Assembly (NCBI GenBank): GCA_025617745.1 | Contig: CM046869.1 | Location: forward strand, 11,117,168 to 11,181,167 | Direction of reading: 5' to 3' | DNA: 64,000 nucleotides | Source: Heliocidaris erythrogramma | Lineage: Eukaryota; Echinodermata; Echinoidea; Camarodonta; Echinometridae | Part shown: piece by piece, positions 1 through 62,340 of the stretch | Position numbering within the stretch: the first letter of the stretch is position 1 | Layout: every line of letters starts with the position of its first letter | Program-made: the position numbers and the translations under genes | The notes under the pieces: model-generated | What the model saw: the letters and a program-made list of their open reading frames with translations, nothing else | Told to the model about the DNA's origin: nothing | Databases searched by the model: none

Positions 1-160
1 ATCGGGAAGCAAACCCATTTTTTACAGTTTGGGTTGCGATGACGATGATGATGACGATTACGATGATAGTGACGATGACGATGATGACGATTACGATGAT
101 ATTCACGATGACGGTGATTACGATGACGATGATGACGACTACGAGGAAGACTACTTCTAG
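1..160 (+). CDS. EXD1: Last exon (partial) of EXD1-like copy 1, acidic tail
   Basis: An open frame from base 2 runs to a TAG at 158-160. It begins SGSKP, matching the SGSKPSS segment in the last exon of copy 3 (50072-50288), and then becomes an Asp-rich tail with interspersed Tyr and a YEEDYF ending. The coding DNA is a run of GAT/GAC codons, prone to length change by slippage. The exon starts left of the window, so the catalytic part is not visible. Membership of the EXD1-like family rests on the shared last-exon sequence and on three further paralogues in the same window. The tail (about 39 residues after the shared SGSKP) is much more acidic and longer than in copy 3. No AATAAA is evident in the first 100 bases after the stop. 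Confidence 0.72.
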   Translation, partial: SGSKPIFYSLGCDDDDDDDYDDSDDDDDDDYDDIHDDGDYDDDDDDYEEDYF

Positions 161-471
161 TTTGTTCTAAATCTCTCAAAGCGACCCTCATACCAAGTAG
201 TAATCATGCTCTTCATTTCACGATATGCCTATCTTGTTTTATAAAGCAGGTTCTAGAATGTAGCCTTTTTAATTGTTCATATGACACCGCGTGACCGAGC
301 ATTTTTCTTCCCTACTATACCGTCATGACCGTGCAGAAAAAAATCCCATCAAAAGTGATAACGCACGGCAAAAAGTGATTGCACGGCTGAGATGCCCGTA
401 TGCGCATCTGGGGCGTACAGGTACTAACTTAGACGCGATGAAATGCTCGTAATTTCACATGGCATGACAAG
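161..471. other. Intergenic, 3' flank of copy 1
   Basis: Probable 3' UTR and flank of the copy 1 exon. No coding sequence or clear repeat ends are seen before the MITE that starts at 472. Confidence 0.4.
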
Positions 472-665
472 GGGTGGTATTCTGAGATTTATTTTATCTT
501 GATTTTTGTGAAATAATTTTAATTGTCATAACAAAATGTACACTTATGGCGCATCATTGGTTAATGGCTGCGCAAACACCAGTGAAATGTTGCAATGTAA
601 AATTTGTTATGATAGATAAAACTTTGCACTAAAATCAAGATAAAATAATTCTCAGAATTCCACCC
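472..665. mobile_element. Palindromic MITE with 3-bp TSD (AAG)
   Basis: Terminal inverted repeats of about 35 bp: the left end reads GGGTGGTATTCTGAGATT and continues into an ATTTTATCTTGATTTT segment, and the right end is its inverted counterpart. AAG occurs directly on both sides (469-471 and 666-668). There is no coding capacity. A 3-bp duplication suits Harbinger or CACTA type elements; the superfamily is not settled. Confidence 0.7.
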
Positions 666-668
666 AAG

Positions 669-1636
669 GTCTATATAGCAAGGAAACTGATGCGCCCATT
701 GAGACGCTCATTACACTTTTTGGCTGCGCTTATGTGATGTCATCAAGGAATGGAGGCCTCCATGACTGTGCATGTGCGATTCCTAGCTTTTCGAAGGGGT
801 GTGTAACCATTTTTAAAAACTTTATATTCATATTAAGATTCATATTCATAGTTTTATTAAACAAATAATTCATGTTTTTGGCTCATACATTTAAGTAGCA
901 GTGTTGTAGTCAAGGTCCAAAACCTCAACGCCATGGCTAAGGCCAAGGCTTGAAACCTCAATAAAGAAAGGAGGGGAAATGGAATATACAAAGACGGAGG
1001 TTCACACACAAAAAGAAAGTAGGCACTTGCCTTTAAAAACCAAATGCCATCAGGAGTGGCAGAACCACCTACAAAGACCTGGTGGAAAACAATGCATATT
1101 AATGTTCATAACCCCATTTTCTTGACCAAATCTTTGTACATGTATTGTTATATTCCTTTACATAAATAGCTGGTAATTAACTGGTTATTTATTTGTGAGC
1201 AAGCGAAGTGAGCTAACTAATAAAGATGGACTTATAGCGCTCTTTCCTCAAATATCAGGACTTTATATTTAACAATGCATGATTGGGAGTTTGCATTTGG
1301 CTAATAAAGTCATGCAAGGCACTGTATTTTATTATGATTCTAACAGGAGATATGTCACTGCTCTCAAACCCACAATGCCCCTTTTTCTCCAGCTGATTTT
1401 CCTGTTAGGCCCAATTCACAATTTTAGGCCTCTTGTCAAGATAGTGAATGTGAGGTCTCATTCGAGGTTGCATAGCAACTAGTGCTCTAGTGGTTTATAT
1501 TGGGATTATGGCGCTCAGAGCAAACAATGAAATTGCCCCCCCCCCCCAAAAAAAAAAAAAAAAAAAAAAAAAAAACATAAATAAATAAATAAATAAATAA
1601 ATAAAATTAAAAAATTAAAATAATTCAAAAATTAAT

Positions 1637-1671
<35 letters not shown>

Positions 1672-2150: not shown

Positions 2151-2174
2151 TTATGTGAGAAGAAAATTTAAGTA

Positions 2175-3571: not shown

Positions 3572-3574
<3 letters not shown>

Positions 3575-9809: not shown

Positions 9810-10203
9810 TTAAGGGTATTCCAAATGACTATAATAGCGACAGTCAAAAAGATAATCACCATCTTCGTCATCTTCGTAATCTTCGTCATCGAAGTCAACG
9901 TAGGGGGAAGCGGCGGAAGGCTGAGGACGATATCCATAATCAAAGTATTGGAATTTGACATAGGGGGAAGCGGCGGAAGACTGAGGATTATATCCATACC
10001 CCGATGTAGACTGTCCCGTACTAGAGCTGGGTGTGCTTCCCGATGCCCTCTGTCGGTTGCTTTGGTTGCCCTCTGGTTGCCTCCTTGGTTGCCTTGGCTT
10101 CCCTCTGTCTTTTGCCTTGTTACTTCTCTGCTTTTTTTGGATGCTTTCCATGGTGTCTTTGCACGACCAACTGAAAAGTTCCTGCCAAAGTGGTGTTAGC
10201 ATT
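9810..10203 (-). CDS. EXD1: Copy 2 exon 6 (tail and stop)
   Basis: Acceptor ATTGCAG precedes 10203. Together with GG from exon 5, the first base A completes a Gly codon. It encodes MLTPLWQELFSWSCKDTMES, a Lys/Arg/Gln-rich stretch, a 20-residue direct repeat (PQSSAASPYV / PQPSAASPYV) and an acidic YEDDEDGDYLF end. It is about 1.8 times the length of the copy 3 equivalent. Confidence 0.85.
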
Positions 10204-13200: not shown

Positions 13201-16200
13201 ATCTCACATTCTGTCATTCATACTATTCGCTGACGATTCTTCTGTCTTTTATTCACACAAAAATCCCAATGAACTTCTTGAAACCGTAAATCTCGAACTG
13301 AAGCGTGTTGAGGAGTGGATACGTGCAAATAAACTGTCTTTGAATTTAAATAAAACGCAGTCCATGCTTTTTAGCAACTCTGTTTCAAAGTTACCAGGCA
13401 ATGTCCTTATTCATGACACAGTTATAAAGTTAGTCAAGTCACTAAAATTTCTTGGTCTTACTATTGATAATAAACTCTCTTGGAAAGAACATAACATATT
13501 TTTAACTAAAGCTATTTCAAGGAACATTGGAATAATTAATAAACTAAAAATGTCGTTTCCGAAATATATTTTGAAAAGTTTGTACTCTACTCTTATCTTG
13601 CCCTACCTCAACTATGGGATACTTGCATGGGGAAATTCTTATGATTATCAGCTGGACAAATTACTGATACTTCAAAAGCGCGTCATACGAATAATCAACC
13701 ACACTGATAGGCTTAGCCACACAGATAGCCTTTTTTTCAGACAATAATATATTAAAGGTTCAGGATTTATACAACTTCTTTTTAGGATGTTTTATGTTTC
13801 AGTTAAATTCAAACGATCTTCCTCATGCTATCAAATCAATATTCATAAAGAATCAAGAAATTCACAATTACCCAACCCGACAGTCCTCATCTTTTCATTT
13901 ATATAAACTCAGAACCTTAATGAGGAAAAAGACATTGATTTATACTGGTCCTGTATACTGGAACTCCCTAAATATGTCACTCAAAGTACTTCCTAATTTA
14001 AAAACGTTTAAATATCACTTGAAACGAAATCTCCTACTCATGTATAATGAAGGTTAAACATGGAAGCTTAAGTTGTTCGTTTATTCTCTTTTAGTCATTG
14101 CAGAATCTTCAGTAAGTACAACAATGGGTTGGCTGCACCGCACACTCACACCCCCCCCCCCCCCCCCGGTTTGTTTTATGTTATAGTTACGCAATTACGT
14201 TTTGTAAAGGGAACCTTATTTACAAGCTGATGCTTCCGAGGTTTCCTCCCCATCGCTGCTTGTAGTTCGTCTATATATATATACATGTATATGTGCTCTT
14301 AAATAGTTTTTTCACTTATTTGGAGATTATTAATGGAGATCTTCATTTGTTCAATTATTTCATATGTATACTTTTGATGCAGTTGATGTGGAAATAAAAC
14401 CTAAATGAAATGAAATGAAGTACGTAATGCTATAACAATGCTAACATTTTGCTAAATTTATATATACAGTCTAATAACCATATACGAAAAAGGTATAAAA
14501 CAGAAAAGGGGATATTATTACAAACACAACCTTCAGAATGGGAAATGACATATAGGAAAAGATAAAGAAAGACAATTCCGTTTAACACATCATGAGAGAG
14601 ACAATATGAAGCAGATGGTATGGTTATATTGTAGCTCGATCCATAGCAAACTGACTCTGTGGAAGTCCATGGTAGTTTACTATGGAATTCGTTATCCACC
14701 TCAGTCTCTGAAAATGCGTAGCTCAAAAGAAAAAGGGGGACAAAGAGAAGAAATATTGGATTCCTATTATTAAATAAGTAGCATAAACAATAAAAACTGA
14801 TATATTTTGTAAATTTTGATCATTGATTGCACCATTATTTGAAATTCTAACAATATTTTATGACACCCATTTAGAGTCATAAGTGGCATGAATAATATAT
14901 TTTTATTTATCTTGAACAACACAGCTATTATACCTTTTTATTGAGTCATGGGTCTCTTTGTTTTCCCTTAGTGTCTCTGCACTCTTAGAAAAAAAGGTTT
15001 GTTTTAGCACCTTTAAAAGGTGCTTTTGCCACACCAGTGCCACCTTTTAGGGTGTCCCTAAGCACCTTTTGAAAAGGTTTTCATCGACACCTTTACGAGC
15101 TAGCCTACTCTTGGGCAATATTTTATCGTCAATACAATATATCCATAGTAACTGAAATCAATAAATTATAACAACATGCAATAGAACACATTTATTCAAT
15201 TTGTATCAAACCAAAGTATTGAAGATGACGAATATAGATCGATATTATCGTGGACATGTTTAAATAATATCTACAGATTGTGATAAAGACTAATACGCAT
15301 AATAAAAGGTGGAAAAATCTAAGCTCAATGGCCAAGGTCCTTTTAATGGAACTTGTAGACACCTTTTCAATCCGGCACCAGTTTAGAGCTAATGAGTACC
15401 CCATAAGCACCATTTTTTCTAAGAGTGTGGCATTACTTCTTTCTGTTCTCTACGTACTTCTTATTAAACCAATTATCAATGTTTGTTTATGTATATTTAC
15501 TGTATCATGTCTATGCTATCAATGTTTGGTTTTATGAATGCTTTGTCTTTGTTATAATTATTACGTGCTTTTATATATCTGTGATTTAAACATTTTATCT
15601 TATATGTGTAATAAATGTTGAATTGAATCGAACTGAAATTGGATAATGTTGGAACATACCCGTTGAGTCTCAGGTAGACGCTGGGAACCAAACACAAGGC
15701 ATCGGACGCGGCGTAATAGATCATATCTTCTGTTAAAGGTCGGAGCTTCCAGAAATCTGGCGTTACAAACATCTTCTTCACAAAGTCATCATCTTTGTGA
15801 GAAGCGCCCTCTCCAAGGAGTTCACAGAGAGCTTTGAAGCCGATTCGGTAGGAGTGAGTCATGTTCATTTGCTCCATCAAACTGCGCATTGCAATCTGGG
15901 AGGAAGAAAATATGTATTACTGAAGGCTTGTTGCACATAGTACTGATCAAGGAAAACAATCTTGAACAAGGACTGCCATATTTGATTTAAAAATCAATGA
16001 CTTGTGATATGAGGTGAGTTAATATGCGTTAATTTATACAGCACACTCATACATTCATACATATAAATAATGTTTAAACTAAGTCCGATGGTCCTGCCTT
16101 AGAATATCAATAAAAATACGGAAGACAAGCAAAAAAGGCGCACTGCTTTGGTAAATCACTTCATTATTTTCCTGCCTAATCACGTGGCCGAAACTCTTCC

Positions 16201-19200
16201 CTTTAGCTTAGGAATTCTTTATTAATCTGTTTTTCCCACACACACACACACAATTATAATTATAAACTTTAACTGGTACTCTTACCGACGTGTCAAACAC
16301 GTTCTTGAGTGTCACACTAAATCCACGGTACAGGGAGTATGTGTCGCTTTTGCAGTCATGGATCACCTCAATAATGACAAGATTGGAAGAATACAAAGAT
16401 ATTATTTTTTAAGATTGTGTAAAAATCAATGCAATCATTTGTAATATATTGAAATATTGATTGTTGCAGTTCTGTTTTCCCATTTTGTCATTTTTTAAAT
16501 GTATTTTTGATTGATTTATATTTTCCGTTTCAATATAAGCAGACAGGATACATATCGGTTCGGAGGCAATGTAATAAGTTTGTACATCAAACAAAGATGA
16601 AGGTATTGAGAAGCCAACAAATAGTTGAAAAAAACGAATCATTATTCACCTAATGATATGTGATAATAAGACCAAGTTCACATTTATCAATAAGTTCTCA
16701 CTACTTTATCAATACATCGACAGGAAATAAACAGGAAGCTTAAATGTTTACGAACTTCACACTTCTTCAAAAACTTTAGTGATACAACTTCCAACTAAAG
16801 CTATGACGCAATTGTCACTTTATGGTCTTCTTACTCACAACATCACTCCTTCCAGATAAAAGCCCCACTCCCCGATACTGAGTAAAAGTTATGACTTACT
16901 TATGGTCATTTGGTCAATGACTCAATTTTGACTAACTCCCAAGAGAGGTTTTGCCCCTTATAAAACGGGTTCTCTTTAGGACTCCAGTCGTGAGAGTATA
17001 TTCACCATCAGACTTGCTATAGAGTACCGAAGTGTGACGTCATCAAATTTTGATTTTTGTATTTCAGTATTTTATGACCATATTTAGGTAGAGCATGATG
17101 GAAAACGTTCACACATCAAATTTGACATGAATCAGTTCATGGTGGCCCAAGTTATGGCTATATGAATATCTAATTAGCCCCATTGAAGTCAGTGTAAATT
17201 GGCCTGGTTCTTAACAGTTTAGAACCAGGCCAATTTAACACTGACTTCAATGGGGCTAAGGAGGTATTCATGGGGTCATATTTCGGGGCCCAATGAGCCA
17301 ATTGCCATAAAATTTGGGCTCTGGATGTTTTTCACCATGTTCCTTTGAGATATGATATTAAAAATGTCAAAATGAAAAAATAGCTTTTTGTGACGTCATC
17401 ACTTCGGTATACTCTATAGGCTTCATCGTTGTTAAATTCATCCGTATATTCATGTTATACTTCATCTATGAATAAATGCTATGCTCTATATATAGCTTCT
17501 AACTAACTGTAACTGACTTGTGCCACAGTTCATCATATTATGTATTCTCTCTATACTCGAGAAAGCAAAGTGTAACATATCTATTCCCTACAACACTGAA
17601 CATACTGTACATAGTGAAACAAAGTTGCATGTAATAGAAAGCAGTTCTTGTGTGGTTCGTGTCCCCAAGATTTAGTTACCGCCCATAACTAGGGGGGTTC
17701 AGGGGGTTCGAACCCCCCCCCCCCCCAAGCTGGCGAGCAGAAATCTGCTTCAACAACAACAAAAAGGAATCAAAAGGCGAAAAAATTTCTCCAAAGTGAC
17801 ATCAGAGGTCCGCTTGAAAAAAAAGATAAATAAAAAAAAGCGAGGGGAGAGATGATGGAAAGTGAAAATAACGTGATAAAAATATCGGTCTTTCCGTCTA
17901 TTTTAATACATTTGATTTTGATTTTTTCCCGTAACTTCCTAATCTGGCAAATCTATAATTAATCAATGTCGTCTTTCACCATTCATTTTCGAATTTTGTA
18001 CGTTATACCAAGTTGCAATCGATTTTTTCAAAGCGTCATTCAAAGAATTATTCAAATTCGTTTGTTGTATCCATGGCAGGCCTGTAACGAGGCGGGGGGG
18101 GGGGGGTTCAGAGGGTTCGTACACCCCCCCCCCCCCCCCAAGCTGGCGAGCAGAAATCTGCTTCAACAACATCAAAAAAGAATCAAAAGGCGAAAAAATT
18201 TCTCCAAAGTGACATCAGAATAATGATTTTTAGGTTAAAGTTTTAAAACATATCCATATACCAACTGGCTTAGATAGGGGAGGGCGCACAAGGGGGTCAG
18301 GGGGTCACAATTTGAAAACTTTTTTTATTTGCTTTTGTCCTGCAACTTCATTATATGCCTAGTCAATATACGTCTTTGGCCATTCATTTTCGGAATTTAT
18401 TTTTCATTTTGCTATCGAATTTTTTCAAAGACTGAAAGAGTTCAAAGAGTTCTTCCAAATCGTCACCCACTCGTTGTAAGGTCTTGTCTATGTGACGAAT
18501 TTGAGTGACAATTTCTTGAAATCGACTTCCCAAAGATGGATTTGATGATAAAATTTTGCAGCGGATTGCTAGGTCTGACGAATTCGATTCAAATCTGACG
18601 AAAATGGAGATATGTTGAAGTTGATTGACCACTGAACCTGTTAAATGACATTGGGTGATTTCACGCTCGGTGTTGGTGTTTGGTGTTAGTGTCTATTTTG
18701 CCCCGAAATCGTGATCTAACACCGACTATGAAATGAAAAAAAATCAGTCGGTGTTAGGTGTTGACCTCTGATTTTTTTGACGTAGTTCCGGTTGCCGGTG
18801 TTTGTTTTTTGTTAATAATCGTCTACTGAACCGAGCTCGACCGTCGGTGTTTAATTTCATGTACAAATTCCCATTCACTAACACTATACCCCTAGGGATT
18901 AAGAAATACCGATTTCACGGTCGGTGTTGGTGTTGGTGTTTCTAGCTATGGGAAATTTTGCTGATTAGTCATGAGAAATAAAGACAGTAGGCGCTATTCG
19001 AAGTGTAATTTCATAGGCGTTAAGAGGTATTATGTTCATATAGGCCTGATATTAGATCTAGGCCAGCATTTGGTCTAACGTTCGATCTAGAGCACACGGA
19101 AAGGAACTACTTTTGCTTTTTAATGGGTTTGAAGGAGTGAAGAAAAATTCCGACCTAATTTTCTTTTTATGATAGATTTAATAAAAATGACGTTAGATAT

Positions 19201-38150: not shown

Positions 38151-38284
38151 GATGTCAGGTCTGCTTCTTGACCTTCTTTATATTTCACCTCTTGATTTTT
38201 CACCTATATTCTCCTAGTATGCAGCTGGCATATTTTGCCTCTTTTCTTTTTGTTCCTGACATCACCCATCGCTTGTTTATCTCT

Positions 38285-40070: not shown

Positions 40071-40791
40071 ATGGCAGACAGCGATGAATTGTCCGGTCGC
40101 ATTGTGCGAATCGACAAAAATTTTGCGAATATATCGGTATCGGGTCGGGCAGGAAATGCTCGTCTCGACACGTCGTCTGCTCGCCGAATCACGGGTGCAT
40201 ACATTGCTGATCTCCGCAACATTCTGGAAATAAATGCTCGACTTAAGGTTCGGATTGTTCCAATGTCTGAGGAGATTTTATCCAAGATTCCTCAGCAGGT
40301 TCGACAAATTGTGAGGCGAAATTCTCAATGGGAAGTCAAGTTCTTCAAGAAAGACATCGAACCAGCACCGCAACCCTTTCAATTTAATGTCCCCGAGCGA
40401 CATTTTAAAGACGGTAGCAGCCCCAGTGGTGTGCCACCGGACACCGTAGGTAGGATCATCTCAGCGCTTCTGCAGATTGTGTCCATGCTCAATGACATAC
40501 GTCTATCGAAGCTTCTTCCTCTTGTAAAATCACATTTCAAGGTTAAGGGCATCCCTGGTCTTGATCGCTATTTGGGGACAGAGGTTGATCTGGAAAGATT
40601 CATCCGTGGTTTTCCTCAGTATTTCACGATTTCATCAATGAATGTCAAGCGCTGTTGCGGGTTTAGCGAGGATGTTTTCAGTGCAGCCATTACCGAGAAA
40701 GCCCTGGAGATATACCCTTCTAGCAATGCAGGGAAACCGACCAGACCGGCAGCTGCGGCATCTGCTGTTAGTGATCCTGTTGACTTCAAAG
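40071..40791 (+). CDS. EXD1: Copy 3 exon 1
   Basis: 240 codons plus one base. The donor AAAG/GTTCCTATAC is a poor match to consensus, though the phase and position equal those of copies 2 and 4. Without splicing the frame runs on about 39 bases to a stop at 40830. Confidence 0.85.
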
Positions 40792-43700
40792 GTTCCTATA
40801 CTTTGTTTCTTTTTTTCCCCTGCCCTTTCTAAATAACTTTCATCATTTCATTATCATTACTATCATAATCATCGTTGTTATAATAATAATAATAATAATA
40901 AAAGTAACTTATATAGCGCCAAATCCACTCTGTGGAGTGCTCAGGGCGCATGTAGAAATTAGTTACGAATTGAGCAGAAATATTTTTACATGATTTTTTA
41001 AAAGAATCAGATGTTATGCACTTTTTGATGTCTTCAGGAAGGCTATTCCATAATTTAGGACACGCATGGGCAAATGATCTTACCCCCAAGATTTTGCGAC
41101 CTTAGGGATCACAAGAGAACTGGAAGTGGATGAGCGCAAAGATCTCGCAGGGGTGTAATTTTGAATTAAAGAGGTATTGTATTGGGGAGCAGAACCATGA
41201 ACGCAGTGAAAAGTGGGCAACAAAATTTTGAAAATAATGCGATGTGTGACAGGGAGCCAGTGTAGCGACTGCAAAACAGGGGAGATATGAGTACGCTTGG
41301 TGGACAGAGTAACAATGCGAGCTGCAGCATTTTGAAGCTTCTGGAGCATGAACAACATATTTGGGGTAAATTGAACAAGAAGGGCATTGCCAAAGTCGAG
41401 ACGAGAGAAAATTAAGGCGTGAACTTTTCAGTGGCAGACTCGGACAAATATAATTATCATTATTACTAGTTTCATTTTCGTTATATGTAGGCCTATTAGA
41501 ATTATTGTTATATTTTAATAATTATAATAATTATTATCATCATCTTTACTTCTATTAGAAAAGATATCATTGTTATTATGGTCATCATGATTATCTTTTT
41601 CATTACTGTGATTATTAGTATAGGTATTATTATTATATTATTTTCATTATTATTATTTAATAGATATTATTATCATTATCATAATTATCATTATTATAAT
41701 TATAATTATTATTATTATTATCATCATCATTACTATCGTTATCATTAGTTTTCCTTTTGTTTTTAAAGATGTGCTAAGCTGCACCCAAATCATCGAATCT
41801 ATGGAGGAATGCAAGCGAGTTCTTGATCCGATCCTTGACAAGTCCAGAAGAGAGTCTGTTGTCATTGGACTTGATTGTGAAGGTGTTAAACTGGGTAAGT
41901 GAATTTACGTTGTGAATCACGTATATTCAATTAAAACAAAAAAAAGCTACGTTAAATGCTGTGGTAAAATGTATGGTTTACAATTATCATAATTTCGTTA
42001 CTAATTGTTGGTAATATGGTGCTAATGCAACAGATTATAATAGCAACAATAAATAATGATAATATTGATAATAATACAATAAGTATAATTAATATAGTTT
42101 ATTATTATCATTATAGTAATAGTAGTAATATTAATAATAATATTGATAAATGTAATGAATATGAACACATTTTAATAGTAGTAATGATAGTGATATGAGA
42201 ATAAATATAGATGTAATAATCATAATAGTAATATTAATAATGGTAATAATAACAATGATAATTATAATAATACCCCCTCTACTACCTGCACCATGACGTC
42301 TACTGTAATGATTCTATAGCCCATTCTGTTTGTACAATTGTAATTATGGAATGGCATTGGTGGTACACCATACACGAATCAAAGAAATCTGGCAATTTGA
42401 TTTGAGGCCGGATTACCATTAAAGGGGAAGTCCACTCCAGTTAGTAAGTTGATTTGAATAAAAAACAGAAAAGAAGATAAACAGATTAGTGCAAGCTTGA
42501 GCAAATTCGTTAAGAAATAAGAAAGTAATTAATTTCTGAAGTTGTAATTAATCAAATACAAACTGGCAACTCCATGACGTATCTTGCGAGCTTTTCTCCC
42601 ATTTGCTCTGTACAAAAACTTTCATAGATTTTCTTTTTCTTAGTTATTGATGAAAGGCTAGATTTGTTTTATATAGGTTGTGTGTAAAAACATATTTGCA
42701 AAAAATATATCTAGGTAGCATGTATGATTAAATATTTTCTTTAGAAAAATTGATATATTTTTTTTCGTACAGTCATTAACGGTTTATGAAATCTTTATTT
42801 GTTTTTAAGATGTATTTTATTGTTTTCTCTCAAATCAAATACATAAAATGCAATTTTCATTAAACAAATTGTACAAATTATTTGAACAAATATTTTAACA
42901 AAATAATGCAAATATACATCAAACATTGAAAAAAATCTGAAAATAATGAAGAAAATATTACTTGTATCTTATACATAAATATTGAAATAACGTATTGTTT
43001 TAAAGGATAAGAGAGAAAACCGAAAAAATAAAATCAGGTGCTGTTCTCATACACATGGAAGGGATATAATTTCCTATTTCTTATACCGTCTCTGTAAGGA
43101 AAAAGAGAGAAAAAAGAATATTTGGCTCTTGCTCAACCTTTACCTCTACCTCTTTGAAGTAATCGATCACACAAAGTGGCAACTCCGTGACGTATCTCGT
43201 GAAGTCCTCTCCCATTTGCCCTGTACGAAAAAATCGTAAATTTCCATATTCTCTATGACTCTAAAGAAAATATGTAATCATACATGCACCCTAGATATAA
43301 TCATTTCACTCATGCTTTTACACAAAACCTGTATGAAACAACTCTATTCCCTCATCAAAAACCAAGAAAATGGAATTTTATGAAATTTTGTGTACATGTA
43401 GCAAAATGGGAAAGGAACTCGCAAGATACGTCACCGAGTTTTGATTGATAACAACTTCAGAAATTCATATAACTTTCTTAATTCTTAACGGATTTTTCTC
43501 AAACTTTCACTGATCTCTTTTTCAATGCTTCTACTTCATTTAAAACCAACTTGATATCAGGGTGGACTTTAAGAGAGAAATGTAGGCTGACATAGAAAGA
43601 ATATATGAATGGAATACATTAGTGGCGTGAACTCGTTTTAGGACATTCTAGACCTATTTTAAACATTTTGATAGCATTACAAAGAGAAAATTTTTACCCT

Positions 43701-47082: not shown

Positions 47083-50000
47083 CGCCTATGGACAGAAGTA
47101 AAACTTTCTATCACACATGTGTCATTTGGAAGTCCATATCTTGCTATGTCGTTCACAGGATTAGAGAAAGGTTGCCTGACTCTTGTTCAGATTTCAACGT
47201 GGGAAGGGAAGGCTTTCCTTTTCGATGCTTACAGGAATCCTCAGCTTCTCAAAGGTGACTCCAGCCTCAAGAAGATTCTGGAACATAACATGGTCCTAAA
47301 GGTATGTATACGATTAGTAACGGTCTATCAGATGTATGGCATGATTGTTAACTTGGCAATCAGGGAGTATAGATTTCAGGGGAGCGTTTCATCAAGTGTT
47401 TTGTCAGTGATTTTTACCGGCAAATTTGCTCTCAGCCAATCAGATGCGAGGATTTCAGTAGCTTATAACAGTTGTCGGTAAAAATTACTGACAAAACACT
47501 TGATGAAACGCCCCCAGAAAGATCATCTCTTCCATAAACGAACTCTTTTCCTGAATGACCAATCCAAATGAGAAAATTTCTCCCGTCCTCATTTCGTTTT
47601 GTAAATCTAAATAAAAGTATAGCTTCCCTTATAACACAGTTGATGAAAATTTTTATTCTACATTTTCGAGGGAAAACGAGTGTTAACTCGCACTTTTTTT
47701 TTTTAATAGTTTCATGCATTTTCACGATCCTATAGTAACCCACTTGTCTAGAACTCATAAAACGTCCATGTATAAATTCAAATAAGAAGTCAAATAACAT
47801 ACTCAACTTATAATACTCCGTTGCATTATATTAATATCTTTCAAATGCGGTTATCTCGAAATAGTACACTTTGGGTTTAGCAATTTTTTGCACAGACCCC
47901 TTAAAATACTATAGTATTGCATAATTTCAAACAAAATAATTGTTGACTATAGTGGACTGTGACTGATGCCGTATGCTACATTAGTTTATGAAGCTCATTT
48001 AGTCTAAACTTTAAATTAACGTTCCCTTCTCAAAATATTTTTTAACTCAATTAGGTGATCCATGACTGTAAAAGCGACACATACTCCCTGTACCATGGGT
48101 TTGGTGTGACTCTCCAGAATGTGTTTGACACGTCGGTAAGCATAATACTGTTTTCTCCGTAGTGTGTAAGGTCGGTACAGATGTCGGGGGGGGGGGGGTG
48201 GCTAGCCTAGTTGGGAGTGAACAGATATGTAAGGCTAATACATTCAACCGTTCAAATTAGTAAGTTCATTTATTGCAACATGATTATGATCGCATTTTGT
48301 AAATTGTCACCAGTAAATTGTATGATAAGGAGGTCATACGCATTCCCAATTTTAAAACTTGATGTGATGAGGAAGTATAGGCCGTCATTTTTTTTATGTT
48401 CACGTAGATTGTGATGCGTACTCTGATGGAGCAACTGAACAGGTACCGATCCTACAGAATCGGCTTCAAAGCTCTCTGTGAGGTCCTTGGAGAGGGTGCC
48501 TCTCACAAAGATGATGATTTTGTGAAGAAGATGCTTGAAACGCCTGATTTCTGGAAAATCCGACCTTTCACAGATGAGATGATCTACTACGCCGCATCCG
48601 ATGCGTTGTGTTTGGTTCCCAGTGTTTACCTGAAACTCAACGGGTATGTTTTAGCAAAAGTCACTCACTCTCATAGCCCCGCCCCCCCCCCCCACTCAGT
48701 ATTATTTAGGGTACGCGTGTGCTTGTTCCCTCCCTTTGAAAGCACCCCCCCCCCCCCCTATCTCAGGGCTGCCAAAATTTCTGAGCCCCCCTATCGCGGG
48801 CTTTGCGCGGGTTTTTCCTGCCCTGGAGACCCCCCTAAATTCTGAACACTGCTCAATGTACCCCCTATCTCAGGTGAGCTCTCATTCCAACCCCATATCT
48901 CAGGACAGACACCAACTCCCCTGTCAAGTAAGCTGTCATTACAATACTTTGGAAAAGATCGTTTTTTATGTTCAAAATGGTATCTCAGAACTCAATGCAG
49001 TCATAAGAAATCAAACAAAAATGAAAATCTCATGACATAAAAGTTTTTTTAATGGTAAGATATTTCATAACCCACCTTTTTTAATTTCTCAGGTGTCGAA
49101 GAGAGAGAGAGAGAGAGAAAGAAAAACACCCCCTTTTTTAATGATATCTCCGGGTGAAAGATAAAAAACACCCCCTTTTTTTACAATTCACGGGCCGGAT
49201 TGCGTCGCCCAAAAAATACCCCTTTACCGGAGATTTTGGGAACACGCATGCGGTCCCTTCGACCTCCGAGTGGGGGGGGGGGGGGCTCATAGCACAGCCT
49301 AAGCAACATATCTAATCAACTAAAACTTTGCAAATCGAATTTGATCATAGTTTTATTTATTAGTATTATTACCTCTTCGGAAAATGAGCAATTATTTATT
49401 CCAGAATGACCATCTTGCTATTCTTTTCACACTCTATGGTCCAAGTCATATTTGTTTTTAATAATTAATAATTACACCGCTTTATATATTATTTACTATG
49501 AGTAATTATATTGCTACTTTATTTGAGCATTTTAATTAAAAACAACAGAAGTATAAAAAGGAACGCTTGCCTTCTTAATTGTGAAAATTACACAACAGTG
49601 GTTTGGCAGTGAAATTTGTTTGCCTAGGTATGATGCAGAGCTTTAAATGGGTGCTGCGTTTATCAGATAAAACATCTAATCTGACGGTCTTCAAAGCATT
49701 CAGATGATTCTTGCACATTGCCCAACCCAGATCACTGTCCGCGGACAACAACCCTCAATAAAATCACTACCCTAGGCCCTTCAGACATTCTATTCCTCAA
49801 GGCAACCATCCTCCAACCGCCAACTACCCACCTAAGGTAGGGTAGTAAAAAATGGAAAGTCGCTCTATAGGGGACAGTGAGGTGTCCGATGTAAATATCC
49901 TGGGGTTGTATTCCTAGATATATTCTGAGGGTTTATTGTCCGGGGTGTATAGTGCTAGGGACATTATTGTTATCGGGACACCTATGTAAATTATCTCAAA

Positions 50001-50288
50001 CAAGATTTGCTGAATAATCCACACTTTAATTGCACAGATCGTGACTTAATTTGCCTTGAACATACTTCCAGAATGCTGACTCCGCTTTGGCGTGCCTTGT
50101 TCACGTGGTCTTGCAAAGACACCATGGAGAGCATCCAAAAACCACGACAGCAAAGAGGTTACCAAGGCAACAGACTGGTGGCATCAGGAAGCAAACCCAG
50201 TTCTCTCAAACGCCATCATGGAGATTTCATGCTTTACAGCTTTGGTTATGATGACGATGATGATAGCGACGACGACGATTTTTTCTAA
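40071..50288 (+). CDS. EXD1: EXD1/Egalitarian-like 3'-5' exonuclease, copy 3 (complete, 6 exons)
   Basis: Joined exons 40071-40791, 41769-41894, 47159-47301, 48055-48135, 48408-48643 and 50072-50288 give 507 residues without a stop. Parts: N-terminal beta-barrel-like region (about 5-105, GRIVRIDKNFANISVSGRAG to WEVKFF); winged-helix-like module (about 130-225, LSKLLPLVKSHFKVKG..LDRYLGTE..FIRGFPQYFTIS); DEDDy nuclease with D276/E278, D334 of HDCKSD, and Y418-x3-D422, all present. EXD1 relatives work with Tudor partners in piRNA biogenesis and some have lost catalysis; here all ligands are kept, so activity is likely (inference). The tail is short and acidic (DDDDDSDDDDFF). Oddity: the exon 1 donor is GTTCCT, where the paralogues have GTAATT and GTAAGT. 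The start is the first ATG aligned with copy 2. Confidence 0.88.
40878..41435 (-). mobile_element. L2/CR1-like LINE 3' end in copy 3 intron 1
   Basis: The minus strand encodes LQKLQNAAARIVTLSTKRTH, LHWLPVTHRIIFKILL and, after one shift, RSFAHACPKLWNSLPEDIKK, the classic C-terminal blocks of L2/CR1 proteins. The 3' end reads GGCGCTATATAAGTTACTTT followed by (TTA)n. Confidence 0.85.
41769..41894 (+). CDS. EXD1: Copy 3 exon 2 (exo I motif)
   Basis: 126 nt. Acceptor TTTTAAAG, donor GTAAGT. Encodes VLSCTQIIESMEECKRVLDP through VIGLDCEGVKLG. Confidence 0.92.
42423..43568. mobile_element. Kolobok-like palindromic element flanked by TTAA
   Basis: Diverged inverted arms of about 330 bp (42423-42760 and 43240-43568). 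TTAA is present at 42419-42422 and 43569-43572. The left end is AGGGGAAGTCCAC; the right end has lost a few terminal bases (AGTCCACC). GACGTATCT with GCTTTTCTCCCATTTGC-like sequence occurs in both arms and once more directly at about 43190. No transposase. Confidence 0.7.
43984..47045 (+). mobile_element. Jockey/CR1-group LINE, 5'-truncated, in copy 3 intron 2
   Basis: Starts inside the APE endonuclease (STIIDLIFVSD, then ISDHFFVYAV with the SDH motif). It continues through the linker and RT: NYRPISILSIISKIIERAVH, SQCGFRAKHSTATA, FIDLRKAFDTVDHNLLLEKL, CVPQGS, MYADDTTLTVSG and LGILIDEELNW. Frameshifts near 44760, 45470 and 46120 break it. The C-terminus ends at 46372. The 3' UTR matches the inverted copy at 30188-30972, but the final tail is absent and a (TA)n run (47051-47079) follows. 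It differs in subfamily from the LINEs at 10-14 kb. Confidence 0.85.
47159..47301 (+). CDS. EXD1: Copy 3 exon 3
   Basis: 143 nt. Acceptor GTTCACAG, donor GTATGT. Encodes LEKGCLTLVQISTWEGKAFL through VLK. Confidence 0.9.
47379..47515. mobile_element. Palindromic MITE (GCGTTTCATCAAG), copy 1
   Basis: 137 bp. Arms of about 45 bp starting GGGGAGCGTTTCATCAAGTG; the centre is GCTCTCAGCCAATCAGATGC. A relative lies at 57313-57438. Confidence 0.75.
48055..48135 (+). CDS. EXD1: Copy 3 exon 4 (exo II motif)
   Basis: 81 nt. Acceptor AATTAG, donor GTAAGC. Encodes VIHDCKSDTYSLYHGFGVTL through VFDTS. Confidence 0.9.
48408..48643 (+). CDS. EXD1: Copy 3 exon 5 (exo III motif)
   Basis: 236 nt. Acceptor CACGTAG, donor GTATGT. 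Encodes IVMRTLMEQLNRYRSYRIGF, then GEGASHKDDDF, FWKIRPFTDEMIYYAASDAL and VPSVYLKLN. Confidence 0.92.
48655..49290. repeat. Poly-C and CCCCTATCTCAGG-type low-complexity block
   Basis: Repeated CCCCCTATCTCAGG words, CACCCCCTTTTTTT words and a (GA)n run at about 49100-49120, in copy 3 intron 5. Proline-rich frames here are artefacts. Confidence 0.55.
49291..50071 (+). other. Rest of copy 3 intron 5
   Basis: No element ends are recognised. The acceptor CATACTTCCAG ends it. Confidence 0.4.
50072..50288 (+). CDS. EXD1: Copy 3 exon 6 (short acidic tail)
   Basis: 217 nt. The first A completes the split Gly codon. Encodes MLTPLWRALFTWSCKDTMES, a basic stretch with SGSKPSSLKRHH, and the DDDDDSDDDDFF end. 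Confidence 0.88.
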
Positions 50289-54409: not shown

Positions 54410-54481
54410 TGTCTCCGCCGGGAATCGAACCCGGGTCGTTGGCTTAGAACGCCAATGCCTTAACCACTAGACCACGGAGAC
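54410..54481 (-). tRNA. tRNA-Arg (UCU)
   Basis: 72 bases including discriminator A. Acceptor GTCTCCG pairs with CGGAGAC; D arm GTCT/AGGC; anticodon stem TTGGC/GCCAA with loop GTTCTAA (anticodon TCT); T arm CCGGG/CCCGG with loop TTCGATT. No intron, no encoded CCA. A T6 terminator follows directly. Confidence 0.93.
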
Positions 54482-54615: not shown

Positions 54616-54687
54616 GTCTCCGTGGTCTAGTGGTTAAGGCATTGGCGTTCTAAGCCAACGACCCGGGTTCGATTCCCGGCGGAGACA
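54616..54687 (+). tRNA. tRNA-Arg (UCU), inverted twin
   Basis: Same 72-base sequence as the copy at 54410-54481, in the opposite orientation, so the two genes diverge from the central spacer. A T6 terminator is at 54688-54693. Confidence 0.93.
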
Positions 54688-55906: not shown

Positions 55907-56351
55907 ATGTACTCGCACTTGTACAGGAGAGACACTGCTCATTCTGATGGTCCCGACCGGCTCTTTGCCGATATCGGAACCCCCAGTGGTGTGCCTCAGG
56001 AAATTGTAGGGCGCATCATTTCGGCAATCCTGCATCTCATTCACACACAAAACACATATCTGCCGAGGCTCCTTCCTCTTGTTACATCACACAGGGCCGT
56101 AAACAGGATCCCAAACATCGGTCTGTACTTGGCGACACAGAATGACCTGGAAGAATTCATCCAAAGTCTGCCTCAGTACTTCACAATTTCGGGAAGCGAT
56201 GTGTGTAGATGTGCTCAATTTACCGAGGAGGTTTTCAATGCCGCCATTACCAAGAGAGCGCTGGAGATTTACCCTCACAGCATTGGGAGAAAGAATAGCA
56301 AATCTACCAGTTGGACTGCTGCAGCTGTTGGCAAACCAGATGATTTCATTG
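55907..56351 (+). CDS. EXD1: Copy 4 first recognisable exon
   Basis: Donor ATTG/GTAAGT at 56351/56352 equals the exon 1 donor of copies 2 and 3. Winged-helix-like segment intact. The left boundary is uncertain. Confidence 0.7.
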
Positions 56352-59300
56352 GTAAGTACAATAAAGTTCTGCATATTTTTATCATATTTCATTGCACAAT
56401 AATGATCGCATTGTACTTTTCCCATGAGTTCCATTCATCATTATACATGGATATAACTTATTATGTTCCTGAGAAATAAGAAACTCGATATTTTAAGAAC
56501 GTTTCAATATTTTCAATTAAAATCTGGTTGCCCTAACTATAGATATAGATAACTATATAACTTGTGGAAGTAACTTCTGTACATTTTCACTACGAAAAGT
56601 TCAAAAGTTTGAATTGAAAAGTCGATATTCAGCAAAAGGCGTCCTACTTCGGCAATGGCATGCAGCTACCCCCCCCCCCCCCTCCCGAGGATTTTCAAAG
56701 TTCCGATATTCGGGAAACCACCACTTCATATTTGGGCAGCGAGGTGCCAAAATATCCATATATTTGTGCAGCGAGGTTCCCAGATAATTATGTAAAATAA
56801 CTTCTGTACATTTTCACTACGAAAAGTTAAAACAAAATGCTCTCTCGCTTCGCTTGCTTGCAAAAAAATTAGAAATTGAAAAGTTGATATTCGGGAAAAA
56901 GGCGTCAGGCCCCTCCTTGCGAAAATGGGCCCGTGTGATCAAGATCTCTATATAGGTCTGCGGTATTCTTTTATTATTATTTATTATTATTTGTGGGGGA
57001 GAGGTATTAGGGTGCAGCATTTTTGTCAGCAAATTTGGATATCACACCCTAAAAATTTGTCCGCAAATTTGGGTGTCACCCCCATGCCCCATTCAAAATG
57101 TTCTAGCGACGCCCCTGAATACGGGTCCATGTTGTCCTGATTTTGCTTCAAAACTGATTGAAGAAAATTATTATTCAATTGCTTTAATTTAGATTTAGAT
57201 GAACACACCAACCAAAAATTACCAAGCCCTTATCAGTAACTAAAACTGTGTATCATAACCAAACATTAAAAGACATAATAATCGGGATGTGTGTTAAAGA
57301 TCAAGTTTGTCGGGGGGGGGCGTTTCATGAAGAGACTTGTCAGATATTTGCTCTCAGCCAATCAGATGCAAGGATTTCAGTAGCCTATAACACTTGTCGG
57401 ATAAAATATCCGGCAACTTCCTTTCGTGAAACGCTCCCATGGTCACGAGACTGAACAGTAAAAGAAATTGTCTCAAAGCAATTGGGAAAGGGTGATTATA
57501 TAGCACATAAGAATTGGTGTATGCTGTAATGTTTTGGAATCATCAAAATTATTAAAAAATTGACTCATTCCTGCTGAAAGACACATGCACTGCACACAGA
57601 AATGTGTATATGGAACTACACACAAATGTTCGGCCCGAACATTTTAGTTGTTTCTTGTCATATTTTGAATGTGAGAGCATTGAAGACCACTCCTTTTCAG
57701 GGAACCTATCTACTATGATAATCTTCCAAACTAACAAAAAGAATGCGAAAGCTCACAAATTATTTCTCATCTTTCCCATGACTCAAGCTTCCCTTTAAAT
57801 ACGCGGTTATTTCATAGCATATAGGATATCATTCGTTCACTTCCTTGCAATATATGTGATTTTTATTACCCGATATTGCACTCTTGTGGGGTGTTGCAAG
57901 AAAGTTGCAATCAATTGCAAATTGTAAAGCAAATTAGAACAACCATTCTGAATGGTTCAGGGTCTGCCCATTCAAGAAGATGCGCCTGCAACAATGATTT
58001 TGATTGGTCAGTACCGATCAGTTGCAACTTGCAATCAATCGCAACTTTCTTGCAACACCCCATTGGATTTGTATCATGAGTAGTTGCTCAATATATCAAA
58101 GTGCTGGTCAGTCTGAGCAAAAAACGTATTTCATTTTTTTCATTGAAGATGTGCTGAGCTGCACCCAAATCATCGAATCTGTGGAGGAATGTAAGCGAGT
58201 TCTTGATCCGATCCTTGATAAGTCCAGAAGAGAGACTGTTGTCATTGGACTGGATTGTGAAGGCGTAGGTCTAGGTAAGTGAATGATTTTATTATCCCCT
58301 CGCCAACGAAGTCGGATGGGGATATAGTAACGCTGCAGTCCGTCTGTCTGTCCTTCCGTCCGTAACAAATCTTGTGAACACTGGTTTCCGTTCGATAACT
58401 TTAGTAATATTTGACGGATTTTAATGAAATTTCATATGAAGGTACATGGTATCAAAAATACAGCCTAAGTTCGATTTCGGAGTATGTAGGTCAAAGGTCA
58501 CAGATCATTAAATATGCAATAATTGCTAATTATGTACATAAGAAAGTTTATTTTCAGATCTTCTCATGGGTCATTCCATAAAGTAGTAAACTTCCTGTAC
58601 ATCCAATCCCCAGGTTTTCGTAACTTCCTTACCTAATATAATAGTATCAGGCCGGGAGCCTGTCCCGAAATAGTCACCCCATTTTACATATGAGATTTGA
58701 CCCCCTAACATGACATGGACCATCCATGTCATTCACAAAAAGCTTGTCAGCTTGAACGAAGCTGCCGGGTTCACACTTCGATATAACGTGACTGAACTTT
58801 ATTCACGCCATTTTGCACAACGAATGATAGTCTTACTTCAGACTATGACTATAGGGACAAAAGAAAATTTTCGCCAAACCTTCAAAAACCTTCCAAAAAC
58901 CGCTCAGTAAGAGGTTATGGGGTCCAGTTTCCCTCCATAATTCCCTGACAAGCAACAAAAAAAAAAAAAAAAAAAAAAAAAGTGCTGGGATAACAGACCC
59001 ATGTCTAAGGATTTTTTTGGGGGGGGGAAATGGGACCCATGTCTAAGGATTTTTTGGGGGGAATGGGACCCATGTCTAAGGATCTTTTTAATGAAAAGGG
59101 GACCCATGTCTAAGGATCTTTCTTCAAAAAGTCACCCTTCCCAGCGGCACATCCCCGTATACCCAATATACGTGAGTACCCCCCACGAAAATGTGGTCGA
59201 ATGTTGGGTTGCCCGATTGGCCAAGAGCAACTCCAGTGTAGCTTCTTTCCACGGCTTCTGCTCATTTTTTGCGATTCGGGGGCTTTAAAATGCGAACATT

Positions 59301-62300
59301 TTCTAAAGCTAGGCCGCTTTGCTCCCTCGCATAATTATTTGCTTTCAGGATCTCGGAATTTTGCTCCCCCCCCCCCCCCCCCCCCAGTATATAGTTCTTA
59401 AATAGCTTTTTTAAGAGGTCAACATTTTAAAAATAAAGATGTAATTTTCGTTGCTTTGTTCGCTATCATGTAAGTTTCGTCGGCCTTTTGCTAAATATTG
59501 CGCCCCCAATATAGGATGAAGTTCATAAAACGGCATTTTGGAGAGGTACAGCATTTAAATGAAGTCTCAAATTTCAGTCGACTTGCTAAATTCCTCGACT
59601 ATTTCTCAAGGGTTTTCATTAATTTAGCTCCCAATTTTAGAAGGCAGTGAATAGGAAACCGTTTATCAATGTACAAAATTCGAACTTCTCTACCACTCAT
59701 TTGCACGGGACAGTTGCAAAGTTTCCTGGGTAAAATTCGCAAAGAAAATGCAAAAGACATTACCGCTCCGTCGCTTTGCTCCTTCGCTTGATCAATAACG
59801 GGATTGGTTTTGGGCACTGGTGGCCGGGGGGGGGGGGGCGCAACTTCATTATTTGCCTCGGGCGCCATAATGCCTAGATACGCCACTGATGTGTACCAGA
59901 TTTAACCAAAATATTACATCCCAAATTACATTTTATCATGTTCAGGATCAGCGAAAGGTTGCCTCACTCTTGTCCAGATTTCAACGTGGGAAGGGAAGGC
60001 TTTCCTCTTCGATGCTTGCAGGAATCCTCAGCTTCTCACAGGGAACTCTAGCCTCAAGAAGATTCTAGAACATGACAGCATCCTAAAGGTATGACGTCAT
60101 CCCATGCATGCATGTTACTCTTTCCCTGTTATCTATCTATATCTATCTATCTATGTCAGCTTCGAGGTCGTTGGGTCGACAATGTGATGGATCTTTAGAC
60201 ACAGATTGTCCATTACTTTCTGTCGTCAGCTGCTCAAAATTCACTAGGAACACGATGACAAAAGAGAGCGGACAAAATATACAGCTCCTCATTGTACCCT
60301 CCACAATTGTTCTGGTAGACAATAGAACATCCCTTATTCCCTTCATTGCTATTATGTAAAATAAGTAGAACAGGTGAATATGCGTGTGACCCTGCTCTAC
60401 ATAATCTTACATAATAGCAATGAAGGGATATTCTTTTGTCTACCAGAGTAAGTGTGGAAGGTACAATGAGGAGCTTTATATTTTGTCCGCTTCTTTGTTT
60501 GCCATGTTCATAGTGATTGCTTTATGATTTAAATGCAGGCCTTAGTCGGTCTGCCCCCTTTTCTTCTGCCATTGGTTCCTCCTTGCAAGATTAGGTTTGC
60601 CAAGCTATGCTTCCCTTCTAGTTACATGACCAAATCACTGCAGATGTCTCTTTTTTTCAAAATTGTGAAAAGGTGATCTTATTTCCCCCTTATAAATCTT
60701 ACTTCCTTGTTGGACGTATGCGAAGTGTAGTGGATATGCAGTAGCCTTCTGATACAATTCATTTCAAAAGAATTTATTCGTTTTTTCCATCTCTGTTTTC
60801 AGTGTCCACGATTCACATCCACACAAAAAGACTGGTGTTACCAGTGCTCTCAACAGGCTCAGCCTAATACTCATGGATATGTTCTCATCATATTTATAAA
60901 AAAAACCTAGATATATTAGGTTTTTACAAAAATTGCAGTTACAACTTTGAGCATCAATAACTTAAAAGTTAGAAGTTGGAAAGGTGAAGGATGTCAAATT
61001 TTTATGGAATTTAGTTTTTTGAAAAAATCAAGGCCCCAGAAACTGTGTGAATCGATGATTAATTCAAAACACCACCATTGCCATTGCGCATTGTAGCTGA
61101 AATTCCAGAGCATCCCTTTTAACCTTGAGGTATGAATCATTAATAACACTGTTGGGACATGGCAAAATTTACAAATGCAAGGCACAGTGGTATTATGGTG
61201 TTATGAATTAATTACTGGCGTCAATTTGTCAAAAAGTGAAAATCTAGTTAAATCTCCAAAACCTTATTTTTAGAACATTTTCATAAAACTTACTCCAAAT
61301 AATTTTGACATCCTTCAACTTTTCTCTGAGGAAAGCTCAATTTGGTACAAGTCATAACTTTTGAGTTATTAACGATCAAATGTGTCAAATGTTTTTTTTT
61401 AACACCTTGTATTTTATAATAATTACATGAGTTTTGTAAACTTTAAGTTTTGCTAATGTATTTTTATTTTAATTCATTCAGTGAATTTGAATGACGAATA
61501 TCAGCACAAACGAAGATAATAACAATTATTCACTGTGAAATAATATGAAGACTGGGTTCTCATCAAGAAAAAAGTAGTACGAACTTATTTAAACAGGAAA
61601 TGTTATTAATAAAATGAAATGACACAATAACTGTTTTTCTTTCCAGCTTCTCATTCCTCTCTCAGCCCCCTCTTTCTCTTTCTCACTCATCCCGCCTTTT
61701 TGTACACCTTCTCTAAGAAGTTAATAATTGCAATATTTCGCTTTTGTATAATTCATACATTTCTACCAGTTTGTTTGATGTTTAATTGATCAACTTTTAT
61801 TTTAGTTGAAATTAACGAAGAGTTTTTTTTAATTATGATTCAGGACTACGAAGGAAAACAGCCTTGTGCTCATTGTCTTTATCCTATATAAATATTTTAT
61901 TATACAAAAAAAATCGTTTTCACCTAGTATGAGTTTGGGTTGTTTTTGTTTGTTTTCTTTTATTTGTGAAATTAAAAAAACAACAATATTTTCATGTGTT
62001 TACGTATATTTGCTTGTGCAAATTACTATCGCGTCATGTTTGTCTTGTTAATAACGTTTTGAATTGTTTGGAAATATGAGGGGGAAATGACACTGAGACC
62101 AGTTGTTTTTGTTTGTTTAATTCTCTGATTCTCTGTTTGGCGTTTGCCAATTTGCTACTCATTTGCAACTGAATAACATAAAATCAAACAATGGATTTAT
62201 CTGAATAAAAGAGAAATATGTAAATGATGCAGTAATTATTTCGTTTTCATTCAATTCAGGTGATCCATGACTGCAAGTCGGACACCGCTGCATTGTACCA

Positions 62301-62340
62301 TGAGTTTGGCGTGGTACTCAAGAATGTGTTTGATACACAG
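55907..62340 (+). CDS. EXD1: EXD1-like copy 4, N-terminally decayed, runs off the window
   Basis: Exons 55907(or 55921)-56351, 58149-58274, 59946-60088 and 62260-62340 join in frame with GT-AG introns and the same phases and lengths as copies 2 and 3; exon 5 would lie beyond 64000. The kept part starts DGPDRLFADIGTPSGVPQEI, covers the winged-helix-like module (LPRLLPLVTSHRAVNRIPNI..FIQSLPQYFTISGS), then exo I (VVIGLDCEGV) and exo II (VIHDCKSD). The N-terminal barrel is missing and a decayed remnant lies at 55624-55735. The start is uncertain: an ATG at 55907, or an acceptor ACTTGTACAG at 55920 joining an upstream exon. Nuclease exons look under constraint, so it may be a shortened functional protein and not a dead gene. 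Confidence 0.72.
57313..57438. mobile_element. Palindromic MITE (GCGTTTCATGAAG), copy 2
   Basis: Same layout and centre (GCTCTCAGCCAATCAGATGC) as 47379-47515; the arms are more diverged. Confidence 0.7.
57897..58062. mobile_element. 166-bp MITE with TSD TTG
   Basis: Ends TGGGGTGTTGCAAGAAAGTT and its inverse. TTG directly on both sides (57894-57896, 58063-58065). It ends 86 bases before exon 2 of copy 4. Confidence 0.8.
58149..58274 (+). CDS. EXD1: Copy 4 exon 2 (exo I motif)
   Basis: 126 nt. Acceptor CATTGAAG, donor GTAAGT. Encodes VLSCTQIIESVEECKRVLDP through VIGLDCEGVGLG. Confidence 0.92.
58295..58600. repeat. CTCGCCAACGAAG-type repeat
   Basis: Starts CCCTCGCCAACGAAGTCGGA and TCCGTCTGTCTGTCC, then AAGGTCACAGATCAT. 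I recall this form of sequence as a common marine-invertebrate repeat; ends are not defined here. It lies 20 bases after the exon 2 donor. Confidence 0.4.
58996..59125. repeat. ~38-bp minisatellite
   Basis: Four units of GGGACCCATGTCTAAGGAT plus a T/G run, preceded by a poly-A run at about 58957-58981. Confidence 0.8.
59270..59888 (+). mobile_element. hAT-like dispersed repeat, copy 4 of 4
   Basis: Right end CCTAGATACGCCACTG at 59888 is the inverse of the left terminus seen at 24175. Contains poly-C (about 59367-59387) and poly-G (about 59826-59838) runs. Confidence 0.65.
59946..60088 (+). CDS. EXD1: Copy 4 exon 3
   Basis: 143 nt. Acceptor TGTTCAG, donor GTATGA. Encodes SAKGCLTLVQISTWEGKAFL through SILK. 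Confidence 0.9.
60124..60880 (-). mobile_element. RTE-like LINE 3' part, interrupted by a MITE
   Basis: On the minus strand, 60880-60780 reads as RT (VTPVFLCGCESWTLKTEM; FLCGCESW is typical of RTE/BovB types). 60640-60516 and 60241-60150 match the fragment at 3170-3420. The 3' end abuts (AGAT)n at about 60124-60155. The MITE at 60242-60515 sits inside it. Confidence 0.7.
60242..60515. mobile_element. CACTA-like palindromic MITE, copy 2, inside a LINE
   Basis: Ends CACTAGGAACACGATGAC and, reversed, CACTATGAACATGGCAAAC. ATT directly on both sides. Near-identical interior to 11421-11686, including GAGCGGACAAAAT and CAATGAAGGGAT. Confidence 0.78.
60881..62259 (+). other. Copy 4 intron 3, remainder
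   Basis: No element ends are recognised. Several AT-rich segments; a CT-rich tract at about 61655-61690. Ends in the acceptor TCAATTCAG. Confidence 0.4.
62260..62340 (+). CDS. EXD1: Copy 4 exon 4 (exo II motif)
   Basis: 81 nt. Donor GTAAGT. Encodes VIHDCKSDTAALYHEFGVVL through VFDTQ; the VFDTQ ending matches the form I expect of EXD1 proteins. Confidence 0.92.

Follow-up and report, generated by a model that had tools for sequence, protein, structure and literature searches.

Egalitarian (Egl) in the fly and EXD1 in the mouse are each treated as one gene, at least in the available portions of the reports that deal with them (PMC13186709, PMC4982230, PMC12497819). Can a gene of this superfamily multiply locally, and what would become of its copies? 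The question is raised by a stretch of 64,000 nucleotides from the sea urchin Heliocidaris erythrogramma (contig CM046869.1, here C17:11117168-11181167), hereafter the window, in which a first-pass annotation had proposed a local cluster of at least four EXD1-like 3'-5' exonuclease genes, expanded in both orientations. In this report, we followed the cluster through the whole assembly (1.064 Gb in 26 contigs). The mitochondrial COX1, on contig C24, gets its best score with the echinoderm/flatworm genetic code (512.2 bits, compared with 500.4-507.5 for four other codes), in line with an echinoderm origin. Our main finding is that C17 carries an array of about six long-diverged genes whose catalytic exons are intact, best explained, with a probability of about 0.6, as a tandem array of paralogs that arose through local duplications and inversions, starting with a single gene of the Egalitarian/EXD1 superfamily. 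Among the titles and abstract openings of the literature, no description of such an EXD1/Egalitarian cluster was recognised; the passages on an EXD1/Egalitarian homologue in a mosquito paper had no bearing on copy number.

When the catalytic exons of one complete gene of the window, gene B, were used as query, 52 matches were obtained at E <= 0.01 (55 candidates scored), 44 on C17 and 8 on C1; exon 5 accounts for 11 of the 44. Exon 1 of the same gene gave 14 matches at E <= 0.1, of which 11 are again on C17 and 3 on C1. The copies on C17, whose names were coined in this analysis, lie in two places: a right block at 11.09-11.20 Mb, with R1 (-), R2 (+), A (-), B (+), C (+) and D (+) on a single N-free stretch of 120 kb, and, 0.4 Mb from it, a left block at 10.66-10.80 Mb with L1 to L5, all on the minus strand. 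All 11 copies share one exon code: exons 2, 3, 4 and 5 measure exactly 126, 143, 81 and 236 nt, are bordered by GT and AG, and have open frames without stops. DEDDy exonucleases are marked by a DxE motif, a second Asp and YxxxD, and every copy retains LDCEG, HDC[K/R]xD and YA[A/S]SD, which contain all the DEDDy residues.

The window itself contains A and B whole, most of C, and R2 by its terminal 160 nt (Table 1). The exon lengths read from it in the first-pass annotation, 126, 143 and 81 nt in three copies (A, B and C) and 236 nt in two (A and B), are exact, and the splice borders, frames and visible motifs agree as well, LDCEG, HDCKSD and YAASD being kept in these three genes in whichever exons the window shows. 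That four loci share the code holds within the window for A, B and C; R2 shows 160 nt there, and its exons 2 to 5, which follow the same code, are located before window position 1. Exons 1 and 6, which the first-pass annotation does not list, complete the genes.

The six copies of the right block are distinct genes, since in their catalytic exons they differ from one another by 0.20 to 0.70 substitutions per synonymous site (dS), so that the local block holds six genes rather than the single one expected of EXD1. The comparison with C1 also bears out the proposed local expansion in both orientations, the 11 copies being much closer to each other than to the C1 paralogs: identity to B ranges from 55 to 98% per match on C17, against 28 to 52% in the catalytic exons on C1. 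The matches on C1 seem to stem from two diverged paralogs, each of which turns up, at least in part, a second time; they also match the N-terminal/winged-helix exon weakly (27-31% identity, E 4e-4 to 0.06). In one of them, exons 3, 4 and 5 are 137, 81 and 248 nt long, equal to 143, 81 and 236 modulo 3, and the phases are identical. The exon layout therefore predates the cluster, whose own mark is the exact lengths, and shared intron phases alone are no sign of recent expansion. The paralog at C1:1340501-1341600 reads YAAGS instead of YxxxD and, judging by this replacement, has probably lost catalysis.

Selection on the copies was examined over 194 catalytic codons in all 55 pairs. A comparison of nonsynonymous with synonymous rates (dN/dS) had been proposed at the outset as a check, and its outcome supports purifying selection on the catalytic exons: the ratio is 0.14-0.40 in 54 pairs, D and L1 being identical, and 0.15-0.27 among the six right-block genes. 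Between A and B, for example, 47 of 135 synonymous sites in the catalytic exons have changed, against 39 of 447 nonsynonymous ones (p 4e-12), and in Fisher tests on 11 chosen pairs dS exceeds dN in all (p <= 8.1e-7). A midpoint-rooted DNA tree recovers (R1,A), (B,L3,L5), (C,L2), and C and D with their twins L2 and L1, at 100% bootstrap, and leaves R2 and L4 unplaced; 5 of the 8 inner branches of the protein tree are open. The 11 copies group apart from one C1 paralog, which as the sole outgroup cannot itself prove their monophyly.

Exon 1 has evolved differently from the catalytic core. In each of the 11 chosen pairs its dN exceeds that of the catalytic exons, by a factor of 1.4 to 4.0, and among ten copies its dN/dS is 0.68 in R2-L4 for the N-terminal part and 0.64 in R1-A for the winged-helix part; the higher ratios in some close pairs thus indicate a looser constraint on exon 1. 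Silent divergence differs too: in seven between-clade pairs, dS is 0.90-1.51 in exon 1 and 0.43-0.70 in the catalytic exons, with 95% intervals that are separate in five (A-B, B-C, R1-B, A-D and R1-D) and overlap in A-C and B-D. The two values are alike in R1-A, R2-B and L4-B, and in C-D their order is reversed, with overlapping intervals. The roughly halved silent divergence of the catalytic exons between the main clades suggests old gene conversion, constraint on silent sites being the alternative. For exon 3 of L5, too, conversion came into question; the idea was dropped, as D and R2 carry the identical residues, which look ancestral.

What kind of protein do these genes encode? Gene B matches the 3'-5' exonuclease family PF01612 with 73.5 bits (cut-off 23.6, E 2.3e-20). 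Against a eukaryotic comparison set made of the Protein Data Bank (PDB) and Pfam, its closest solved relative is Egalitarian (E 5.6e-39), far ahead of EXD2 (1.8e-7) and of the single solved EXD1 (4e-6). EXD2, Rrp6/EXOSC10 and NrnC belong by sequence to the same 3'-5' exonuclease superfamily, but with E of 4.5e-8 or weaker. The EXD1 comparison is with one structure (PDB 5fiq/5fis, which we take to be the silkworm protein), vertebrate EXD1 lying outside it. The superfamily is shared, but EXD1-like is the weaker of the two labels.

The likeness to Egalitarian extends over the full length of its exonuclease homology domain, with all four acids and the Tyr kept in both, and into the start of the exonuclease-adjacent region, where about 25 residues align before a low-complexity tail takes over here. 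The available text of one report gives fly Egl three N-terminal winged-helix (ED) domains, then the exonuclease homology domain and an adjacent four-helix domain; ED1 binds BicD, while ED1, ED2, the exonuclease homology domain and the adjacent domain contact stem-loop RNA (PMC13186709). In the sea urchin genes, one winged helix is recognised, in exon 1 (more 5' exons are possible), where Egl has three, and a stub stands in place of the full four-helix domain; there are also many copies, and of the 10 with known exon 6, 5 carry an acidic tail. Because of the single recognised winged helix and the stub, and as far as sequence comparison goes, we file the genes as Egalitarian/EXD1-superfamily exonucleases, and not as orthologues of Egl or EXD1.

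The architecture that emerges would start with an N-terminal region that matched nothing in the searches, continue with a single Egl-like winged helix and the exonuclease core, and close, in roughly half of the copies, with an acidic tail. In A and B, exon 1 runs for 721-736 nt from ATG to donor, about 240 codons. Its second half, modelled from three sequences (mean predicted local distance difference test, pLDDT, 67.6), folds as a helix-helix-helix-strand-strand-helix winged helix; Foldseek places Egalitarian-BicD chains at ranks 3, 4, 5 and 7 for this model, a weak likeness (best Egalitarian E 0.13). The Pfam family WH_Egal reaches 16.3 bits, against a cut-off of 27, for exon 1 of B and of C, and is not listed at E 1 for exon 1 of A; a profile search of solved structures with 6 of the 11 exon-1 sequences gave a best E of 0.64. 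Exon 6, located by motif search, was found in 10 copies and starts with MLTPLW or a close variant; its acidic end is present in R2, A, B, L3 and L4 and absent from C, D, L1, L2 and L5. In L5, exon 6 is present twice, at C17:10752362 and 10758662, about 6.3 kb apart.

From this we propose that local duplication and inversion of a single Egalitarian/EXD1-superfamily gene would have produced the array. A full-length protein would bind RNA through its one Egl-like winged helix and act as a divalent-metal DEDDy 3'-5' exoribonuclease, whose targets would be picked via the winged helix and perhaps also the faster-changing N-terminal region. Exon 1 has changed more quickly than the catalytic exons, and the branch of C and D has lost the usual N-terminal region and acidic tail; both are expected if the paralogs share their chemistry and differ in targets or partners. 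Since the catalytic residues are conserved and dN/dS is low, we infer that catalysis has been kept, and an active family of 3'-5' RNA exonucleases appears likelier than one of Egl-type transport adaptors.

Several observations weigh against this proposal. In Egl, the available text reports the putative catalytic residues to be dispensable for RNA binding in vitro and for function in vivo (PMC13186709); Egl keeps the equivalent residues all the same, and their retention here is therefore no proof of nuclease function. Exon 1 matches no Pfam family at its cut-off, cullin winged helices outrank the Egalitarian ones in Foldseek, where no match reaches E 0.001 or better, and AlphaFold2 on the whole of exon 1 (three window sequences) gives a mean pLDDT of 47.6, with no confident model of the N-terminal region. 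Finally, exon 6 of R1 was not found within 9.9 kb downstream of that gene, and in L1 the reading frame of exon 6 is broken in comparison with D.

Could the copies instead be EXD1-type factors of PIWI-interacting RNA (piRNA) biogenesis, diversified for transposon control? Five of the eight open reading frames (ORFs) scanned in the window do match reverse transcriptase, three of them above the Pfam cut-off. The EXD1 match itself is weak, however, and solved EXD1 aligns without the acids of LDCEG and without the final Asp of HDCxxD, all kept in the 11 copies. Moreover, the repeats of a tested stretch of R2 occur on many contigs, and the repeats of the window are therefore not specific to it. We consider this explanation unlikely; kinship with EXD1 would make such a role in the piRNA pathway or in transposon control plausible (PMC4982230 and PMC12497819, in their available parts).

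A second possibility, that the genes encode Egl-like RNA-localisation adaptors which carry stem-loop mRNAs to dynein via BicD and use the exonuclease fold for binding only, would agree with Egl being the closest solved sequence and with the reported dispensability of Egl's own catalytic residues. The one winged helix recognised, instead of three, and the roughly 25 aligned residues of the adjacent domain speak against it, although the count of winged helices covers exon 1 only and the comparison is not conclusive; a fixed adaptor would also hardly be expected to lose the N-terminal region, as C and D have. We hold such a role to be rather doubtful.

Decay has even less in its favour as a general account of copies 2 and 3. 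Where C and its twin L2 would carry the first part of exon 1, stops interrupt each of the three frames. The corresponding stretch of D and its twin L1 does leave one frame open, about 100 codons long, but this frame is not in phase with the winged helix and is similar to A and B for just some 18 residues. Both findings are what pseudogenes would lead one to expect. Yet the winged-helix part of exon 1 is open in C, L2, D and L1 alike, the catalytic exons are all open with conserved splice sites, and their dN/dS is 0.27 for B-C and 0.22 for C-D, which makes decaying pseudogenes very unlikely.

The left block raises a different issue. L1, L2 and L3 form a mirror-image alignment to D, C and B, in which 11 pieces of at least 800 bases, 94.9-99.1% identical, cover 34.5 of the 42.2 kb from a 500-N gap (C17:10664211-10664710) to the start of L3; further out, the identity drops to 93-95%. 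The match begins in the left block at the first base past this gap, and the right block continues gap-free for 1.3 kb more of sequence beyond that match start. The twins barely differ at silent sites (dS 0 for D-L1, 0.027 for C-L2 and 0.030 for B-L3).

The two largest RNA polymerase subunits (PF00562 and PF04998), expected as three genes each in animals, served as control. For PF00562, the C11 gene is twinned in mirror image (18.50/18.66 Mb) and the C16 and C18 genes are single; for PF04998, the C19 gene is twinned in the same orientation (8.37/9.16 Mb) and the C20 and C7 genes are single. Two of the six control loci expected to be single are thus doubled on their own contig. Among exonuclease loci, that on C13 is doubled and inverted, with 91-98% identity (17.67/17.77 Mb), the C1 paralogs are doubled too (1.34-1.36/1.69-1.71 Mb), and the weaker PF01612 match on C4 occurs once. 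There are five such same-contig doublings (C17, C11, C19, C13 and C1), three of them in mirror image; most simply, both haplotypes would have been retained here and there in the assembly.

Because of the near-identical mirror twins, the start of the block at the 500-N gap and the twinned control genes, L1, L2 and L3 most likely represent D, C and B on the other haplotype, kept unpurged in the assembly. False duplications and overestimated gene-family expansions from retained haplotypes have been described (PMC9516828, available part). These three copies therefore leave the count, and the proposed expansion stands for the six right-block genes, which are unaffected. The same twins, with the doubled control, C13 and C1 loci, could invite the view that the entire cluster is an artefact of unpurged haplotypes, but this is scarcely credible, since R1, R2 and A to D lie on the one N-free stretch at a dS far above the 0-0.03 of the twins, and since C17:11110001-11114000, a 4-kb stretch in R2, has no near-identical full-length twin elsewhere among the 40 candidates scored of 1972, its matches being repeats, 71-83% identical, and two partial copies no more than 3 kb away.

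In the set of 11 copies, R1, R2 and A each lack a near-identical partner. The mirror alignment, followed through near-unique hits of at least 200 bases, extends past L3 as far as L 10719787 / R 11148613 and picks up again at L 10744941 / R 11125628. The interval is occupied by A in the right block and by L4 in the left; L4 is not the counterpart of A and has the opposite relative orientation. L5 is an extra B-like copy, with dS of 0.09 to L3 and 0.11 to B. Should the left block represent the other haplotype, the two would differ in gene content, with A against L4 between shared anchors and L5 in addition. Tentatively, then, the locus might be a structurally polymorphic, fast-turning nuclease array, the haplotypes of one animal sharing B, C and D and differing elsewhere; if so, an Egalitarian-type RNA exonuclease would display a presence-absence pattern like that of immune or genome-defence genes.

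Long-lived paralogs that keep their catalytic residues would offer a natural system in which to study the ancestral function of Egl and EXD1. Was the ancestor a working RNA exonuclease, which later became a transport adaptor or an acid-less scaffold in some lineages? Unpurged haplotypes, as this locus also illustrates, can make a gene family look larger than it is in a chromosome-scale assembly, here with a real expansion beneath.

Table 1. Nuclease gene parts in and next to the window (positions are those of the window, unless preceded by C17)
Gene	Part	Position	Strand	Remarks
R2	Exon 6, 3' end	1..160	+	Fourth locus; acidic Asp-rich tail and stop
R2	Remainder	C17:11100455-11117167		Upstream of the window
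A	Exon 6	9810..10203	-	MLTPLW... and acidic end
A	Exon 5	15660..15895	-	236 nt; YAASD
A	Exon 4	16286..16366	-	81 nt; HDCKSD
A	Exon 3	21579..21721	-	143 nt
A	Exon 2	24418..24543	-	126 nt; LDCEG
A	Exon 1, ATG to donor	26269..27004	-	N-terminal region and winged helix
B	Exon 1, ATG to donor	40071..40791	+	N-terminal region and winged helix
B	Exon 2	41769..41894	+	126 nt; LDCEG
B	Exon 3	47159..47301	+	143 nt
B	Exon 4	48055..48135	+	81 nt; HDCKSD
B	Exon 5	48408..48643	+	236 nt; YAASD
B	Exon 6	50072..50288	+	Exonuclease-adjacent stub and acidic tail
C	Exon 1, open part	55907..56351	+	Winged helix; putative start ATG at 55907
C	Exon 2	58149..58274	+	126 nt; LDCEG
C	Exon 3	59946..60088	+	143 nt
C	Exon 4	62260..62340	+	81 nt; HDCKSD
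C	Exon 5	near C17:11181316		Just beyond the window end

Other features of the window lie around these exons. The ORFs matching reverse transcriptase (RVT_1), at 12134-13747, 44728-45519, 45432-46166, 10341-10688 (+) and 37870-38154 (-), sit either within introns of A and B or in the space that separates the two genes. Two tRNA-Arg(TCT) genes are predicted at 54410-54481 (-) and 54616-54687 (+), in opposite orientation and about 130 bases apart, and a tandem array at 35234-36175 consists of 2.9 copies of a 322-base unit with 89% matches.

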